Shown in pieces: positions 47,077 to 54,712 of a stretch of 64,000 nucleotides of DNA (positions are counted from its first letter, which is position 1; each line of letters begins with the position of its first letter). A program made the translations under genes and the position numbers. Location: the NCBI GenBank assembly GCA_020724775.1, contig DYGG01000001.1, positions 178,784 through 242,783 on the forward strand. Reading direction: 5' to 3'. Origin of the DNA: Ignavibacterium sp. GTDB taxonomy: Bacteria; Zixibacteria; MSB-5A5; GN15; PGXB01. The notes below the pieces were generated by a model. The model saw only the letters and a program-made list of their open reading frames with translations, had not been told where the DNA came from and did not search any database.

Positions 47077-47766
47077 TTAGCCCACTCTTTTTCTGACTGT
47101 CACCACCAGCGCCGTTCCTTTCACGGCTATGGCGGCTTTTGATTCTGCAAATTGATTCCGAAGACTCAGACTGTCGCCAAATTTCAAAGACGCCTTCGGC
47201 GCCGGATACACCAGCCCCGCAAAGCGCACTTTTACTCCATCTGATAGTGGAAGAATCGAAAGATAATCTCCTTTTCTTCCCGTGATTACAGCCTTTTCAT
47301 TCTCTAAAAGAATAACCTCGGAAAGAGGGGAGAGTATCCGCCCGCGAATCCGGCGTCGTTTCAATCTTGACGCCTGTTTTATTACATGAAGTAAGAAAAT
47401 ATTTTCCAGAGTGTGGTCGATTTCGGTCCGTCCCAGCGCTCCGCAGATTTCAATTTCATCGGCGCCCCGCTCTATTGCCATCTCTATGGCAAGCTGGCTG
47501 TCGGTTTTGTCTTTGCGAGGAGAAAATCTGATTACCTCAAGGCCTGACAAGTACTTTTCTGATAGTCGAGGAGCGGAATCGAAATCACCGATAATGATAT
47601 CCGGACGGATTTGGCGCCGGAGAAAGAATCGCACGCCACCGTCAACAGCGACCGTAACTTTGTTGTTCAGCCGCTTACGGTAAAAGTCAGTTTCAGCCGC
47701 AGAATACCGGTTGTTCAAAAACAGGATATATTTCTTCGCTCGAGATTTTCGGCTTTTCTCAGTCAC
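47077..47766 (-). CDS. thiN: Thiamine pyrophosphokinase
   Basis: 229 residues. Family motifs are seen: VDGGVRFF, GDFDSAP and KDKTDSQLA in the N-terminal catalytic domain, then GALGRTEIDHTL, and a C-terminal beta domain for thiamine binding. It makes thiamine diphosphate from thiamine and ATP. The start overlaps the stop of the aldolase-like gene by 8 bp. Confidence 0.88.
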   Translation of the reverse strand: MTEKSRKSRAKKYILFLNNRYSAAETDFYRKRLNNKVTVAVDGGVRFFLRRQIRPDIIIGDFDSAPRLSEKYLSGLEVIRFSPRKDKTDSQLAIEMAIERGADEIEICGALGRTEIDHTLENIFLLHVIKQASRLKRRRIRGRILSPLSEVILLENEKAVITGRKGDYLSILPLSDGVKVRFAGLVYPAPKASLKFGDSLSLRNQFAESKAAIAVKGTALVVTVRKRVG

Positions 47767-48862
47767 TTCGTCCTCTGGCGGCGATTGTGAGTTTTCTCAA
47801 TATCTTCTCCTTACTCACAAGATAGGCAAAATCAAAGAGGTTCATCACGGTGCAGGCATGGTTAGGAATGATTTTGAGCTTTTCGCCTATCTGATATTTT
47901 TCTTTAGGTCTGTCGATTATGCCATGCTCTTCCGAGAGGCGGCTTAATCGGTCTCCCTTCTTTTCAATGTACCCGAAACCTTCTATGAAATTTCTGCCAT
48001 GGGCTCCTTTATCGAGGCCGAGCGCTTTGCTGCCGGAGTCGATGATGACTCGCTCTTTTGAAGGCACGCTTATCACGGTGGCAAACACGGTGAGGGCGCA
48101 ATCAATTATCCGGGCGGTTCCCAGGGCTACCTGAGTCATATCGTTGAAAATGTAATTTCCGACCCTAAGTTCAGTCACGCCTTTCACGACGGCACAGTAC
48201 TCGGCGGTCGGAGTAGAACCGACACTGATGGTTTTGATATCATATCCGGAGCGTCGGAGTCTCTCGGCAAAATTCACCAGCATTGCTCCCTCCATTGTGC
48301 CGATAAATCCCCGTTCCTCCCTGCTTGTTGCGCCGTAGGCATGCCCGGCATGGGTCATCAGTCCGACCAGGTTTATGCCTTTCACAGATGCCGCAGTCTT
48401 GAATATCTTCTCCAGTTGTTTATAAGAATTAACGCCGTTGCGATTCAGGCCGGAATTCACCTCGGCAAGAAGTTGCAGCCGGCCTGCTCGGCGACCCAGG
48501 ACACTTGCAATCATAATCAGATGCTCAGTCGAATCGACTGCCAGGGAGAGGCGACAGTGGGACGCCAGGCGGGCAACGCGGCGTAATTTGTCTTCACCGA
48601 CAACCAGATTGGCGATTTGAATATCTCTGATACCGGCTTTTGCAAAAATCTCCGCTTCTCCTACTTTAGCCACGGCGACGCCGACCGCCCCGGCGCGAAT
48701 CTGCCAGCGGGCAAGTTCCGGTATCTTATGTGTTTTCACATGAACGCGCAGGGCAACCCTATTTCGGGCGGCGAGCCGTTTCATCCGGTGAATGTTCTTT
48801 TCGATGACCTCCCGTTCCAGAAGAATGGCGGGCGTGCTTATGGTGTCAATTGATTTCAACAT
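47759..48862 (-). CDS. PLP-dependent D-threonine aldolase / D-amino-acid-lyase-like protein
   Basis: 367 residues, alanine-racemase-type barrel plus C-terminal domain. The PLP lysine is in VHVKTHK (about residue 44), with barrel motifs MTHAGHAYG and SVGSTPT, and a metal-site NHACTVMN near the C-terminus as in D-threonine aldolase and D-serine dehydratase. It likely splits or deaminates D-hydroxy-amino acids; the exact substrate cannot be told. It is transcribed with thiN. Confidence 0.8.
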   Translation of the reverse strand: MLKSIDTISTPAILLEREVIEKNIHRMKRLAARNRVALRVHVKTHKIPELARWQIRAGAVGVAVAKVGEAEIFAKAGIRDIQIANLVVGEDKLRRVARLASHCRLSLAVDSTEHLIMIASVLGRRAGRLQLLAEVNSGLNRNGVNSYKQLEKIFKTAASVKGINLVGLMTHAGHAYGATSREERGFIGTMEGAMLVNFAERLRRSGYDIKTISVGSTPTAEYCAVVKGVTELRVGNYIFNDMTQVALGTARIIDCALTVFATVISVPSKERVIIDSGSKALGLDKGAHGRNFIEGFGYIEKKGDRLSRLSEEHGIIDRPKEKYQIGEKLKIIPNHACTVMNLFDFAYLVSKEKILRKLTIAARGRSD

Positions 48863-48913: not shown

Positions 48914-51037
48914 TCACCGCGTGAGATAAGCGCCGAGTGCTCCACAAAGGAGCACCGACAATATTGAAACCAGAATACAATCAACTCCTATTATCGGGAG
49001 CAGGACAGTAAGCGGAAGAATTGCTCCTACAGACGAGCCCAGAATTTCGACGCCGTAACCGATACCCCGATTGGCATGGGCGCGACCATAATAATATCTA
49101 CCGGTAGCGGCGACAAAGAGGCTGCCGGTGCCAAGCGCCACCGTAAAGAGAAAGAGCAGATGATAGTACAGAGCGTATTTGGGGAGAATGCTGTCATAGG
49201 TCAAAAGGAGTAATCCCGAGGCCAGTATGAGCAACATGATTGATGGGATGGAAAGACTGTCGCTGGCGCTTCGAAGCGCCAGATATGTACCGAGCGCAAG
49301 TCCCAGCATGAATACTCCCACCAGAAGCCCCAGGTCCGAATAAAGCGCCCCGGCGCTTGACTGGAAAAGATAAAAGGAGACCAGTTCCAGAGAGAGGGAG
49401 GCAAATCCGGCGACAAAATAAAGAATAAGGGCGAAATTGCGTCGGCGATGGCGCCTGATAAGCGCCGTTAGGTACAGAACGATAAACATAGCCGCGGCGA
49501 GTATAGCCGCGTAAGGACGCTCTAAAAGTATCGTCACCATTACTCTGGCGAACCTCTCGGTCTGCGCCTGAAAAACAGCCCCCCTTTGAACTAAGGATGG
49601 CTTTTCCACTTGATTGATAGCGTTGTCTGTCTGCAAAGCTTGATTGAGCCTTGCTATTTTCAAAGACTGAAGGCGGTCTTCCAGAAATCCCCGATTTACA
49701 AATGCAGTCGAGAATCCCAGTTCTTCGGTTCTCCGGATAATTTCTGCAGCCGGAATATTAATGACCGAATCGGCTGAGGCAAAAAAGAGTGTGGTTTCGC
49801 CGGGCCAGAATGTAACATATGGGAAGGAGGCGCGAATGCTGTTATATATTACAGCCAGCGCTCTTCCTTTCTCATCAGATATATGGCGGTCGCTATCATA
49901 GGGCGTGTTCAGAAGAACAACCCCCTTTGGATTCAATGCCGTTCTCAATTGACTGAGGAAAGATGCAGTTAATAGACGGTTCCCCAGGTAGGTTTCTGTT
50001 TCGCCGATATTTATGACGGCATAATCAAATCGGCTGACCAGGTCCCGTCGGGAGAAAAAAGCAATCGGGTCATCGTTTATCACTGTCAGATTAGATGGCC
50101 TCCCGAAAAGTTGACTCCCTATCTCCTCGAGTTTAGCGCGTGGGTCAAGGCAGACAATTTTAAGACTGGGCAGAGAGTCCGCCAATTCCGAAAAGAGAAA
50201 ATCACCTCGGCCGACATATAGAAAACTGTTACCTTCCGGATTATAAAGGAGCGGGGTAATCAGGGAATATTCGGCGGCGCTCCGATCGGGGAAAGTAGTT
50301 TCCCGCAGATTATCGGTTATAAGGCTGATATTCTCGGCATTGCGGATTATCGCTTGCTTGCCGTACGGGGTTTCAAAACTGTCGATAACTTCAGTAGGGG
50401 CGTATTTGATCTTTTCAATTTTCCACTCCAACTCTGGGATCGCAATTATCACAAATAGCGCGCAGACCAGAACGATAGCCGATTGTAACCAGAGATTTAA
50501 CTTTTTTACAACCATAAATGTCAAAGTAAGAGATGCAATTATGATGGCGATGGATAGCCCCGTGACGGACAGAGAGAGAAATGCCGTAACCGCCGCTCCG
50601 CCTACAAACGCCCCCCATCCTTCAAAGAGATATACCTCGGCAACCGCCGCGGCCGGTTTGTATCCTTCTGCGGTTATCGCCGGGAATAACGCTCCTGATA
50701 CAAACCCAACAGGGAAAATGGCGAGTGTTGATATAAGCAGCGCCTTGCCGAGAGGAATAACTTCTCCCGGAATCAGGCCCAGCAATTGCGGCGCAAAACG
50801 AATTGCCAACAGGACTATAAGCAGCAGAAGAGACCCGGCCAAGAACAATGTCTTGAGGCGAAGTCCTCTTTTTTCATTTCCACGCCAGAATGACCCCAGC
50901 GCCACCGCTAACAACCAGGCGAAAAGAGTAATTCCGATAAATAATTCTCTGCCATTTAAGGTTGCCAATACCTCCCTTAAGATTAAGACCTGCGCCCCGA
51001 CCGAAAAAAGACCAAGAAAGAATGCCTGGCGTTTCAT
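48914..51037 (-). CDS. Polytopic membrane protein with spermidine-synthase-like domain
   Basis: 707 residues from ATG 51037, sharing one base with the stop of the radical SAM gene (TGATG). N-terminal block of about six to seven membrane helices (1-205), a soluble spermidine-synthase/methyltransferase-like domain (about 215-430, with YVGRGDFLF as the SAM/decarboxy-SAM-binding loop and ALNPKGVVLLNTP), and a C-terminal block of about seven helices (500-707). Such fused proteins are widespread in environmental genomes, but their reaction is not established. It lies in one unit with the radical SAM and DUF362 genes. Confidence 0.75.
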   Translation of the reverse strand: MKRQAFFLGLFSVGAQVLILREVLATLNGRELFIGITLFAWLLAVALGSFWRGNEKRGLRLKTLFLAGSLLLLIVLLAIRFAPQLLGLIPGEVIPLGKALLISTLAIFPVGFVSGALFPAITAEGYKPAAAVAEVYLFEGWGAFVGGAAVTAFLSLSVTGLSIAIIIASLTLTFMVVKKLNLWLQSAIVLVCALFVIIAIPELEWKIEKIKYAPTEVIDSFETPYGKQAIIRNAENISLITDNLRETTFPDRSAAEYSLITPLLYNPEGNSFLYVGRGDFLFSELADSLPSLKIVCLDPRAKLEEIGSQLFGRPSNLTVINDDPIAFFSRRDLVSRFDYAVINIGETETYLGNRLLTASFLSQLRTALNPKGVVLLNTPYDSDRHISDEKGRALAVIYNSIRASFPYVTFWPGETTLFFASADSVINIPAAEIIRRTEELGFSTAFVNRGFLEDRLQSLKIARLNQALQTDNAINQVEKPSLVQRGAVFQAQTERFARVMVTILLERPYAAILAAAMFIVLYLTALIRRHRRRNFALILYFVAGFASLSLELVSFYLFQSSAGALYSDLGLLVGVFMLGLALGTYLALRSASDSLSIPSIMLLILASGLLLLTYDSILPKYALYYHLLFLFTVALGTGSLFVAATGRYYYGRAHANRGIGYGVEILGSSVGAILPLTVLLPIIGVDCILVSILSVLLCGALGAYLTR

Positions 51038-52179
51038 CAGAATATACCCGGCACGACTTTCCGGCAAAACCGACAGAGATTCCTCTCGATATTTTTCTGC
51101 AATATTTGATACCCCCGCCGCTCGATCAGAATCTTGCCGCACTTTGGGCAGTAAGTCGATTCCGCCCGGTGTCCCGGAAGATTGCCGAGGTAAACATACT
51201 CAAGTCCTTCCGCGCGGCAGATTTCATACGCCCGCTCCAGTGTTGTTTGCGGAGTGGGGGGAAGATTTTTTAGGAGGTATAGAGGATGGAAGCGCGAAAA
51301 GTGGACCGGTGTCTCGATACCGATATAATTTTTTATCCAATGCGCCAGGTCACGGAACTCGGCCTCCGAGTCGTTTAGAGTCGGCACCACCAGATAGACA
51401 ATCTCCAGCCAGGCGCCGGAATTTTTTATCTGAATGATGGCATCCAGCACAGGTTTCAATTGTCCGCCGACAATGTTCCGATAATAGTCTTCTCGAATCG
51501 CCTTCAAGTCAACTTTGACGGCATCCAACTGCGGAAGGAGTGCCTTGAGCGGCTCCGGCTCGATATAACCGCCGGTTATCATGACTGATTTGATGCCACT
51601 CTTCTGTCCCAGTTCCGCGATGTCATACATAAATTCATAAAATATCACCGGCTCCGAATATGTATAGGCAATGACCGGAACTCGCTCCCTTATGCAGATA
51701 TCAATCGCCGCTTGCGGGGAGAGTTCAAAGTTGTCGGTTTGTTCCGGTCGCATCTGCGAAATCTCCCAGTTCTGGCAGAACTTGCAGTTAACATTGCATC
51801 CGGCCGTCGCCAGCGAAAACGCCCTGGCGCCGGGAAGAAAATGAAAAAGAGGTTTCTTCTCGATCGGGTCGATATTGGCGGAGCAGGGAAAGCCATAGAC
51901 TAGGGTGTAATATTTGTCGGCGCGATTCTCTCGAGTGCCGCAGTATCCTCTTTCGAGGTCGGTTACTCGGCATCTGCGGGGACAGATTTGACATTCGATT
52001 CCGCCGCTCTCGAGTCTCTTGTAGAAACGGGCTTCCTTTGAAGAAAGTTGTTTTGTGAAAGAGAAGGCGCAGGCGTTTTCAATTCCACCCAGAAATCGAG
52101 GAAGGAACTCGGTGCCGGCGAGGGTCGTGGCAAGGGTTCCCCCTGCCACTGATTTTATGAAGAGACGTCTTTTCATCAA
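51037..52179 (-). CDS. amrS: AmmeMemoRadiSam-system radical SAM enzyme with Tat-like N-terminus
   Basis: 380 residues. Radical SAM motif C128-x3-C132-x2-C135 (CNVNCKFC), preceded by another cysteine cluster C63, C66, C70, C80 (CQICPRRC...YCG) and followed by a C-terminal zinc-ribbon-like pair (CPKCGK, CRFC). This matches the PflA-like member of AmmeMemoRadiSam systems. The N-terminus M-M-K-R-R-L-F-I-K plus a weakly hydrophobic stretch resembles a twin-arginine signal, which is unexpected for a radical SAM enzyme. It overlaps the DUF362 gene by 4 bp. Reaction unknown; radical chemistry on a protein or lipid is only a guess. Confidence 0.85.
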   Translation of the reverse strand: MMKRRLFIKSVAGGTLATTLAGTEFLPRFLGGIENACAFSFTKQLSSKEARFYKRLESGGIECQICPRRCRVTDLERGYCGTRENRADKYYTLVYGFPCSANIDPIEKKPLFHFLPGARAFSLATAGCNVNCKFCQNWEISQMRPEQTDNFELSPQAAIDICIRERVPVIAYTYSEPVIFYEFMYDIAELGQKSGIKSVMITGGYIEPEPLKALLPQLDAVKVDLKAIREDYYRNIVGGQLKPVLDAIIQIKNSGAWLEIVYLVVPTLNDSEAEFRDLAHWIKNYIGIETPVHFSRFHPLYLLKNLPPTPQTTLERAYEICRAEGLEYVYLGNLPGHRAESTYCPKCGKILIERRGYQILQKNIERNLCRFCRKVVPGIF

Positions 52180-53132
52180 AACAGACTCCCTTCATGCAGG
52201 GCGCCTTGGCTGTCCATAGTCTTTACGTTGAGTTGAATATTCTTGACATCAGCAGTGCCGTACTTCAGCCGCTCCGCGGTTGCCAGGTATCTGACGGGAC
52301 GTCCCGATTTTTCAAGACTGGGGAGGTTATGGGCGGCACGGAGATGTTCCAGAATTTGAAGAGCGACAGTATCAGCCGCCACCGGGTCATCCGATAAGAT
52401 AATGCCGCCGTACTCAGTCAGGTAGCGGCTGTCAAATCCGGGACCGCCATTATATTGAATGCGGAAGGCATCGATAATAGTCAGTTTCAGTTTCTCTTTA
52501 ACCGGGGCAATCCCGAGTACCTGGGCGGCGAATGGGTCGCAGTTGCTGTCATGGTACTTATTAGGATTGTTGATTACCCCGTACAGATTTTTCAGCCCCC
52601 CCGAGAGTCCTGCAATGGAGTGGTCTTTCAATACCGGCAGATTTATGAGCGATTTAATCTCCTCGGTGAGAATCCGACTGACCAGAGAATTAACCTCGCC
52701 GGAAGAATATATTTCACGGCTGTAGCCGAAACGGCTGACATCGGTGCCGAAGGCTCGCACGCCAAATGACGACAGATTCAGTTTGAAGCCGGCACCATCC
52801 AGTTCATTGCTGGTGCGGTCCCAGATAATTATATCGTTCTCATCGCGGCCGTTTCTTACCAGAAGCGCTATGAGCGCCTCCACCAGAGCCACCGACGTTG
52901 AATTATATTGCCTCGTCAGGCAATTAACTTTGAGACCGATGACTCCAGGTGGAATATATTTCTTAATAGCATCTGTGACTTGAACCATTCCGGTTAATTC
53001 GTTCAGCCCGACCTCAAGCATGGTCATAAAAACTCCCACACTCGGAGACTTTGCCTCTGAGGGCCGCTCTGACCTTACTACAACCACCCGGCTCATACTG
53101 TCATATACAATCGATATCGTTTGGTCTGTCAA
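52176..53132 (-). CDS. DUF362 protein
   Basis: 318 residues of the DUF362 type: SRVVVVRSERP start, GLKVNC segment, NLPVLKDHSIAGLSGGLKNLYGV core, and ILSDDPVAADTVALQIL near the end. The C-terminal ferredoxin domain seen in some relatives is absent. Start choice: TTG 53132 has AAGGA eight bases upstream, while ATG 53096 starts exactly at the first conserved strand and the TTGACA at 53127-53132 could instead be a -35 element. First gene of the unit DUF362-radical SAM-membrane protein. Confidence 0.75.
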   Translation of the reverse strand: MTDQTISIVYDSMSRVVVVRSERPSEAKSPSVGVFMTMLEVGLNELTGMVQVTDAIKKYIPPGVIGLKVNCLTRQYNSTSVALVEALIALLVRNGRDENDIIIWDRTSNELDGAGFKLNLSSFGVRAFGTDVSRFGYSREIYSSGEVNSLVSRILTEEIKSLINLPVLKDHSIAGLSGGLKNLYGVINNPNKYHDSNCDPFAAQVLGIAPVKEKLKLTIIDAFRIQYNGGPGFDSRYLTEYGGIILSDDPVAADTVALQILEHLRAAHNLPSLEKSGRPVRYLATAERLKYGTADVKNIQLNVKTMDSQGALHEGSLF

Positions 53133-53185
53133 CTCTTTTTTCCTTGACCGGCTGAACTTTGTGCGGTATTCTCTTGATTACAGAT

Positions 53186-54712
53186 ATGTCACATTTTCGC
53201 ACCATATTAGAGTCTTTATTGATACTCCTAATTTGCCGCTGTTTACCAGCATCGGCAGAAGTTCGCCAGCCGGCCGTTGCCGGGCAGTTCTACCCGGCAA
53301 GCAAGGTTGCCCTTTCAACTATGGTGACAGAGCATCTGGGGGCTGTCTCCTCATCCGAGCCAATCGACGGCGATATTATCGCTCTCATTGTTCCGCACGC
53401 CGGTCTGGTTTATTCCGGTCCTATCGCGGCGCATGCTTATAAGTTAATTAACGGAAACTCTTTTGACCGGGTTGTTCTCTGCGGTGTGTCACATCGTCAT
53501 CGATTTAAGGGGATTTCGGTCTATGGTCCGGGCATAGTATGGAAAACTCCTCTGGGCGAGGTGCCGTGCGGTGACGAAATCTGCCGGAAGTTGCTCGGCT
53601 CATTTGAAGGAGTGGAGGTAATCCCCGAGGCTCATCTGCAGGAACACAGCCTCGAGGTGCAACTTCCTTATTTGCAAACGGTGCTGACCGGCTTCAAGAT
53701 AATTCCGATTATTATGGGATACCCGGATGAAGAGAACATAACTCTCCTTGAAAAGGTTCTTACGGGTGTCCCGGATGAGGGAAGAACCGTCCTGATTGCT
53801 TCGACCGACTGGCAACATTACCGGTCCGCATCCGAAGGATGGAAACTCGACTCGGTCGGAATAGACTGTATCAAAAATCTTGATGCCGACCGTCTGGAAA
53901 AGAGTTTGCAAACCGGCAAGACCGAAATGTGCGGGGGAGGAGCGGCAGTTGCCGTAATGCGTGCCGCCATTAGCAGGGGCGCCAATCGAGTAAAAATTCT
54001 TAAATACGGCGATTCCGGCGACCAGAGCGGCGACAAAAGTAGCGTGGTTGGATATCTTGCGGCGGTTATTTATCGCTCCGGGAAGGAGTCTTCAAACGAT
54101 GAAGTTAAAATCGATGAAAAATCTGAGACCGCTCTGTCCGTCACGACTACCGATACTGCGCTTTTCAACGAGCGGGATTTGACGTCCGATGTCAAAAATA
54201 AACTCCTGAGTCTTGCCCGTAATTCAATTCTATCGTATATGGAAAACCGTACTGTTCCGGCAATTGAAACTGACGGATGCCTGGGTAAACCAGGCGCCGC
54301 ATTTGTAACCTTGACCCGTAATGGCCATCTTCGCGGCTGTATCGGTCAAACCGCCGCCACCGAGTCGATATCAGGCACGGTGGCGAATTGTGCCATCCAG
54401 GCTGCTTTCGGCGACCCGCGCTTCCTGCCGGTCGGACCTGATGAATTGCCGCAACTGCATATCGAAATCTCCATTCTCACTCCGCTGAAAAAAATAACTT
54501 CACTGGATGAAATCGAAGTGGGCCGTGATGGCTTGATGATTGCTTACGGCAATAGCCGGGGGCTCCTGCTGCCTCAGGTGGCGGCTTCTTATCGATGGAG
54601 CCGCGAGGAATTCCTGATACAACTTTGCCGCAAAGCCGGCATTCCTCCGGAGAGTTATCGCAGACCGGAAGCGGTGATATATAAGTTTGGGGCAATCGTT
54701 TTCGGCGAGTAA
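53186..54712 (+). CDS. Memo-AMMECR1 fusion (AmmeMemoRadiSam proteins B and A) with signal peptide
   Basis: 508 residues from ATG 53186 (an upstream TTG at 53159 would put a signal peptide inside). A hydrophobic N-terminus (LLILLICRCLPASA) ends in an AXA-type cut site, so export is predicted. Memo domain about 25-295 with conserved histidine/aspartate segments VPHAGLVYSGP, GVSHRH and STDWQHY. AMMECR1 domain about 320-505 with LRGCIG. Both halves look complete. Divergent from the DUF362/radical SAM unit, with about 50 bp between starts, indicating shared control. Memo proteins resemble dioxygenases; the joint function is unknown. Confidence 0.85.
   Translation: MSHFRTILESLLILLICRCLPASAEVRQPAVAGQFYPASKVALSTMVTEHLGAVSSSEPIDGDIIALIVPHAGLVYSGPIAAHAYKLINGNSFDRVVLCGVSHRHRFKGISVYGPGIVWKTPLGEVPCGDEICRKLLGSFEGVEVIPEAHLQEHSLEVQLPYLQTVLTGFKIIPIIMGYPDEENITLLEKVLTGVPDEGRTVLIASTDWQHYRSASEGWKLDSVGIDCIKNLDADRLEKSLQTGKTEMCGGGAAVAVMRAAISRGANRVKILKYGDSGDQSGDKSSVVGYLAAVIYRSGKESSNDEVKIDEKSETALSVTTTDTALFNERDLTSDVKNKLLSLARNSILSYMENRTVPAIETDGCLGKPGAAFVTLTRNGHLRGCIGQTAATESISGTVANCAIQAAFGDPRFLPVGPDELPQLHIEISILTPLKKITSLDEIEVGRDGLMIAYGNSRGLLLPQVAASYRWSREEFLIQLCRKAGIPPESYRRPEAVIYKFGAIVFGE

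Follow-up and report, generated by a model that had tools for sequence, protein, structure and literature searches.

A four-gene locus of Ignavibacterium sp. (assembly GCA_020724775.1, contig DYGG01000001.1) probably encodes an extracytoplasmic paralog of the AmmeMemoRadiSam system, with a radical S-adenosylmethionine (SAM) enzyme among the exported proteins. For this reading, taken with the whole mechanism outlined below, we estimate a probability of about 0.6. The locus occupies positions 48914-54712 of the window, the stretch of 64,000 nucleotides (nt) that was analyzed. An envelope location, which an earlier note on this DNA had raised, is strongly indicated by putative export signals conserved in about 20 phyla and by signal-less paralogs; the signals were judged from motifs, hydropathy and comparison across homologs.

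The locus consists of a minus-strand operon and a divergently transcribed gene. The operon encodes, in order of transcription, a DUF362 protein (52176..53096; PF04015, 76 bits), the radical SAM enzyme (51037..52176) and a membrane protein, SpdM (48914..51037); each gene overlaps the next by a single nt (TGATG). On the plus strand follows a Memo-AMMECR1 fusion with a predicted Sec-type signal (MSHFRTILESLLILLICRCLPASA/EVRQPAVAGQFYP; 53186..54712), assigned by TIGR04336, TIGR04335 and start-codon analysis. Thus all four genes named in the earlier note were confirmed, by matches to TIGR04337, TIGR04336, TIGR04335 and PF04015 and by a spermidine-synthase-like profile match for SpdM.

The radical SAM enzyme is a protein of 379 amino acid residues (aa), assigned to the AmmeMemoRadiSam type by TIGR04337 (347.5 bits, cut-off 220) and its AlphaFold2 (AF2) model. 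The TIGR04337 match starts only at residue 49, hence the first 48 residues are extra. The protein starts MKRRLFIK and the extra stretch begins MKRRLFIKSVAGGTLATTLAGTEFLPRFLGGIENACA/FSF. Residues 1-38 (MKRRLFIKSVAGG...GGIENACA; 52063..52176, minus strand) form a putative signal for twin-arginine translocation (Tat), with the AxA located before the mature start. The expected features of a Tat substrate, i.e. an arginine pair at the likely true N-terminus, a weakly hydrophobic region and AxA, are all present, and TatC was found in the window's own genome (contig C62) and in 96 of the 111 genomes of the phylum. TIGR04337 matches occur in 99 of these 111 genomes and fall into two length classes, class a (~335 aa) and class b (~380-400 aa). 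In an alignment of 30 class-b enzymes of the phylum (A1), R3R4 is invariant (30/30) and in most cases immediately preceded by the ATG, most sequences have AxA or VxA ahead of the core by eye, and seven of the 30 match the Pfam TAT_signal model PF10518. The columns of residues 9-38, within the window's order, are unusually conserved in the h- and c-regions (RCLGCGA...LPEFLGGIQNACAF), beyond what a discarded signal needs.

The start site agrees with this assignment. The ATG at 52176 is preceded by a Shine-Dalgarno sequence (AAGGGAG) and shares one base with the DUF362 stop, and the single later in-frame start before the conserved core, a GTG at codon 10, still lies within the signal. A start located behind the signal is unlikely, since many loci show this overlap with the DUF362 stop.

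The core of the enzyme carries the radical SAM cysteine motif C127xxxC131xxC134 (51775..51798, minus strand), invariant in A1. Across the survey the extended motif CxxxCxxCQN was retained throughout, in Tat-type (70/70), Sec-type (13/13) and cytosolic (30/30) sequences. The AF2 model (predicted local distance difference test, pLDDT, 89) is ordered only from residue ~41, with low confidence for residues 11-37, and its closest fold is the pyruvate formate-lyase activating enzyme (PFL-AE; PDB: 3cb8, TMt 0.82). The retention of CxxxCxxCQN together with a PFL-activase fold suggests that a SAM-type core has been kept by selection.

The same genome encodes a second Memo-AMMECR1 protein (MKNNIEVRRPAVAGSFYP; contig C87, L001) and a second TIGR04337 enzyme (MIVKAAYYEKLD; contig C67, L054). 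Both start at the core, without a signal, and constitute an internal control for the extensions seen in the window. Cytosolic paralogs from other genomes that encode the exported enzyme likewise lack the extension. The twin-arginine-like signal of the radical SAM enzyme, as initially proposed, is therefore upheld by the arginine pair in 30/30 homologs, the overlap with the DUF362 stop and its absence from these paralogs. For the co-occurrence of the four genes, 40 loci of the phylum were compared and neighbors counted in 29 class-b loci, of which 28 adjoin SpdM, 26 DUF362 and 16 Memo-AMMECR1; no class-a locus adjoins any of the three. Further cytosolic TIGR04337 types are present (L066, L070, L071, L159-L164). 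Those of L070, L071 and L159-L164 share the start ..RYWH.L.D.RIQCD.CPR, and L070 and L071 match TIGR04337 at ~650 bits.

The Memo-AMMECR1 fusion scored above the cut-offs for Memo (TIGR04336, 247.3 bits, cut-off 26) and AMMECR1 (TIGR04335, 167.3 bits, cut-off 99). It consists of a predicted cleavable signal peptide (53186..53257), absent from the paralog MKNNIEVRRPAVAGSFYP, a Memo domain (53267..54067; PF01875, 196 bits) with the metal-ligand motifs PHAG, SH and CGGG, and an AMMECR1 domain (54209..54703; PF01871, 166 bits) with the motif LRGCIG at residue 382 of the protein. By motif count, the metal motifs and LRGCIG are kept in most Memo homologs. Human MEMO1 binds iron and copper through the ligands H49, H81 and C244 (PMC11081632). 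The start of the window's gene has no clear ribosome-binding site; nonetheless, the plausible starts (53159, 53174, 53186 and 53219) all retain at least part of the hydrophobic segment, and the next start lies behind the conserved core. The cleavable-looking signal described in the earlier note accordingly appears real, and Memo partners of exported radical SAM enzymes elsewhere carry signals as well: in 41 of 42 evaluable pairs the N-terminus was strongly hydrophobic by threshold, and in the remaining pair it was more weakly so by eye. Several Memo partners (L096, L101, L111, L142 and others) show a lipobox-like motif. In L135 and L147, a signal-less radical SAM enzyme is paired with a signal-less Memo.

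A wider survey, a single scan of named genomes covering 80 loci, placed exported-type radical SAM enzymes in about 20 phyla by record titles. These include Acidobacteriota, Planctomycetota, KSB1, Poribacteria, Latescibacterota, several deltaproteobacterial groups, Stahlbacteria/WOR-3, Omnitrophota, Eisenbacteria, Elusimicrobia, Chloroflexi, Riflebacteria, Bacteroidetes/Ignavibacteriae, Lentisphaerae/Kiritimatiellae/Verrucomicrobia, Auribacterota, Chlamydiae and some archaeal bins. Homologs thus share the N-terminal extension both within the phylum (arginine pair in 30/30) and far beyond it. The usual N-terminus is RRxFLK, replaced by KREFLKK in Bacteroidota. Fifteen enzymes, many from Omnitrophota (e.g. 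L144, MKKSLLLLILLLSVLFPAIGA), have instead Sec-type hydrophobic N-termini with an N-in/C-out charge pattern. TatC was detected in 31 of the 34 genomes carrying a Tat-type enzyme versus 4 of the 15 carrying a Sec-type one (Fisher P=1.2e-5, kinship ignored), in genomes that were mostly bins, so that a missing TatC may reflect incompleteness. In a quick tree of the mature core, the export label clustered, with at least seven changes among Tat, Sec and cytosolic types and at least four between exported and cytosolic; the Sec label by itself requires a minimum of four.

Two variants concern the N-terminus of the radical SAM enzyme. The enzymes of L086, L097, L100, L120, L129 and L130 start directly at the N-terminal CxxCxxxC, without a signal. 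In L067, L096, L117 and L119, which belong to different groups, a CxxCH insert (CLTCH, CNACH, CLSCH and CVECH, respectively) lies between signal and core. Located before the N-terminal cysteines, the insert is possibly a site for covalent heme c or for zinc; if it binds heme c, export would be proven. No relatives with a CxxCH insert were found in an order-level search.

SpdM, assigned from its AF2 model and a profile match to 1uir, is predicted as a protein of 14 transmembrane (TM) helices with a central spermidine-synthase-like domain. In the model (pLDDT 87), 7+7 helices surround a spermidine-synthase fold. The window protein does not match the Pfam spermine synthase model (PF01564), which a homolog from L120 passes; profile comparison nevertheless links it to aminopropyltransferases of solved structure (E=6e-21; fold 1uir), and the domain recognized initially from the letters stands. 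It comprises residues ~216-480 (49598..50392, minus strand) and is predicted to be extracytoplasmic: lysines and arginines of the short loops number 19 on the N-terminal side and 4 on the opposite side, and in homologs the means are 18 and 3.2, with the same sense in 53/53. This bias places the domain after TM7 outside. GGGDG and the catalytic DxxDP are the motifs of the spermidine synthase family. SpdM of the window has VGRGD and INIGETE instead; in other phyla, GGG is kept with the first Asp mostly Asn, and GGGDG/DxxDP are only partly conserved.

The DUF362 protein of the window begins MSRVVVV, as in the rest of its phylum, and carries no export signal. Outside the phylum, DUF362 proteins adjoining an exported radical SAM enzyme have a Tat signal in 10/10 cases, some with a lipobox-like cysteine. 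In the window's phylum, the protein probably hitchhikes on the radical SAM enzyme; co-export of signal-less partners is known for PaoABC (PMC4273604).

Candidate electron carriers lie close to the cassette. Eighteen genomes of the phylum encode a NapH/NapG-like polyferredoxin membrane protein no more than 7.3 kb away; in several of them it is accompanied by another DUF362, this one Tat-bearing, and occasionally by a DUF6599 lipoprotein. The presence of the polyferredoxin goes with that of the exported enzyme (58/63 versus 11/48, with class-b presence read by hand and phylogeny ignored). In L074, L043-L045, L047, L049, L050 and L073, the polyferredoxin has an internal Tat-like segment and stands beside the Tat-bearing DUF362, at times with the DUF6599 lipoprotein. 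DsbD_2-type membrane proteins form two clusters of six loci, mostly adjoining Sec-type radical SAM enzymes (L089, L092, L095, L098, L099, L144; and L086, L097, L104, L114, L131, L143). In L104, L114 and L143, DsbD_2 is fused to FMN_bind and Fer4_5.

The window system is related to the cytosolic AmmeMemoRadiSam system by three family models (TIGR04335, TIGR04336 and TIGR04337) matched above their cut-offs, the same cysteine motifs and the LRGCIG loop, but differs from it in the Tat and Sec signals, the linked DUF362 and the outward-facing SpdM. As the signals on the radical SAM enzyme and Memo are absent from the paralogs, it appears to be a variant of that system; lack of an export signal is the form of the cytosolic members and not part of the curated definition. 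We know of no reaction for any AmmeMemoRadiSam member. With PFL-AE the radical SAM enzyme shares the fold, whereas the sequence identity is 19% and it has an additional N-terminal CxxCxxxC, a C-terminal CxxC..CxxC and the predicted export. No gene for a glycyl radical enzyme partner recurred among the larger neighbor clusters of the exported loci. The neighboring polyferredoxins, with Fer4_5 and Fer4, and the DsbD_2-FMN_bind-Fer4_5 fusions of the Sec-type loci presumably resemble the electron chains of the periplasmic nitrate (NapGH) and nitrous oxide (NosR) reductases, but no reductase is present here, and the neighbor is a radical SAM enzyme. Lastly, SpdM shares the spermidine synthase fold with membrane-fused spermidine synthase-like proteins (PF01564/PRK03612) and differs in its 7+7 TM arrangement, the predicted outside location of the domain and the loss of GGGDG and DxxDP.

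In the favored mechanism, the radical SAM enzyme would be exported by Tat and Memo-AMMECR1 by Sec, both steps being strongly indicated by the predicted signals, and DUF362 would ride along with the former. Export by Tat would allow the enzyme to cross in folded form, its [4Fe-4S] cluster having been inserted beforehand. Given these two routes and the outward domain of SpdM, the radical SAM enzyme, Memo-AMMECR1 and SpdM would come together on the outer side of the inner membrane. Membrane polyferredoxins (NapH/NapG-like here, DsbD/flavin mononucleotide (FMN)/NapH-like elsewhere) may deliver electrons to the enzyme, and the outward Rossmann domain of SpdM may bind or pass on the adenosyl cosubstrate. 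The PFL-activase-like enzyme could radically modify a membrane-side partner, most likely the LRGCIG loop of AMMECR1, and Memo may bind iron or copper. A broader claim would be that radical SAM enzymes of a widespread class, in about 20 phyla, work outside the cytoplasm, served there by a dedicated electron supply in the membrane and by dedicated handling of the adenosyl group, and that hosts lacking Tat rely on export by Sec and on assembly of the cluster outside. This claim appears to us evenly balanced.

Several points weigh against this mechanism. To our knowledge, SAM is not known to be available outside the cytoplasm, and Sec export in Tat-less hosts would require cluster assembly outside, for which we know of no precedent. 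The catalytic Asp and GGGDG are altered in SpdM of the window, the polyferredoxin of its genome is encoded on another contig (C24, 38644-40305, L074), and the co-occurrence figure for polyferredoxins is uncorrected for phylogeny. One clade (L086, L097, L100, L120, L130) has a signal-less radical SAM enzyme, in L120 and L130 adjoining a Memo of the exported type (signal peptide or lipobox); hence the two proteins need not share one compartment, and judged by predicted signals, export of the radical SAM enzyme is not universal in the system.

Three rival explanations were weighed. The exported enzyme might handle metals or electrons, e.g. in iron/copper homeostasis with Memo, its cysteines holding clusters or metals without cleaving SAM. 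The lack of an extracytoplasmic SAM pool known to us, the Sec-type export in Tat-less genomes, the DsbD_2, FMN and polyferredoxin proteins nearby and the CxxCH insert in four loci (L067, L096, L117, L119) speak for this role, as does metal binding by human MEMO1 (PMC11081632). It is nonetheless unlikely in view of a CxxxCxxCQN motif kept as strictly in Tat-type (70/70) and Sec-type (13/13) as in cytosolic enzymes (30/30), and of a model that matches PFL-AE with AdoMet (3cb8). That the N-terminal segments are inner-membrane tethers, with the catalytic domains remaining in the cytoplasm where SAM and reductant are found, would agree with the clade combining a signal-less radical SAM enzyme and an exported Memo, and with the conservation of the h- and c-regions in the window's order, unusual for a discarded signal. 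Yet RRxFLK is combined with AxA, Memo proteins bear lipoboxes, Sec-type forms have an N-in/C-out charge pattern, signal type is associated with TatC, the SpdM domain faces outward and DUF362 proteins have Tat signals, which makes tethering distinctly improbable. Finally, an ordinary cytosolic AmmeMemoRadiSam locus with chance or mis-set N-termini could be suspected, as the start sites are predicted and the window's Memo start lacks a clear ribosome-binding site; the invariant arginine pair, the start/stop overlap with DUF362, the paralog control and the spread over about 20 phyla leave it hardly any probability. Mis-set start codons were ruled out by this overlap, the invariant arginines and the signal-less paralogs, and chance hydrophobicity by the association with TatC and the coupling to Memo.

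Immediately downstream of the cassette (47077-48862), the window encodes a thiamine diphosphokinase and an alanine racemase/D-serine dehydratase-like protein. Several relatives likewise have both genes close to the cassette.

Radical SAM enzymes are regarded as cytoplasmic because SAM, low-potential electrons and Fe-S assembly are located in that compartment. A search of the open-access literature, which leaves out most subscription journals, yielded no report of export of such an enzyme, and there the AmmeMemoRadiSam system was mentioned in passing, never as the main topic. The maintenance of putative export signals across about 20 phyla suggests that the cell envelope is here the site of radical SAM chemistry. 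With a conserved exported form, the questions arise of how SAM and reductant are supplied and how clusters mature outside the cytoplasm. For the AMMECR1 and Memo families, which include human AMMECR1 and MEMO1, the locus provides a genetically testable bacterial context with partners, a compartment and a cytosolic control in the same genome.

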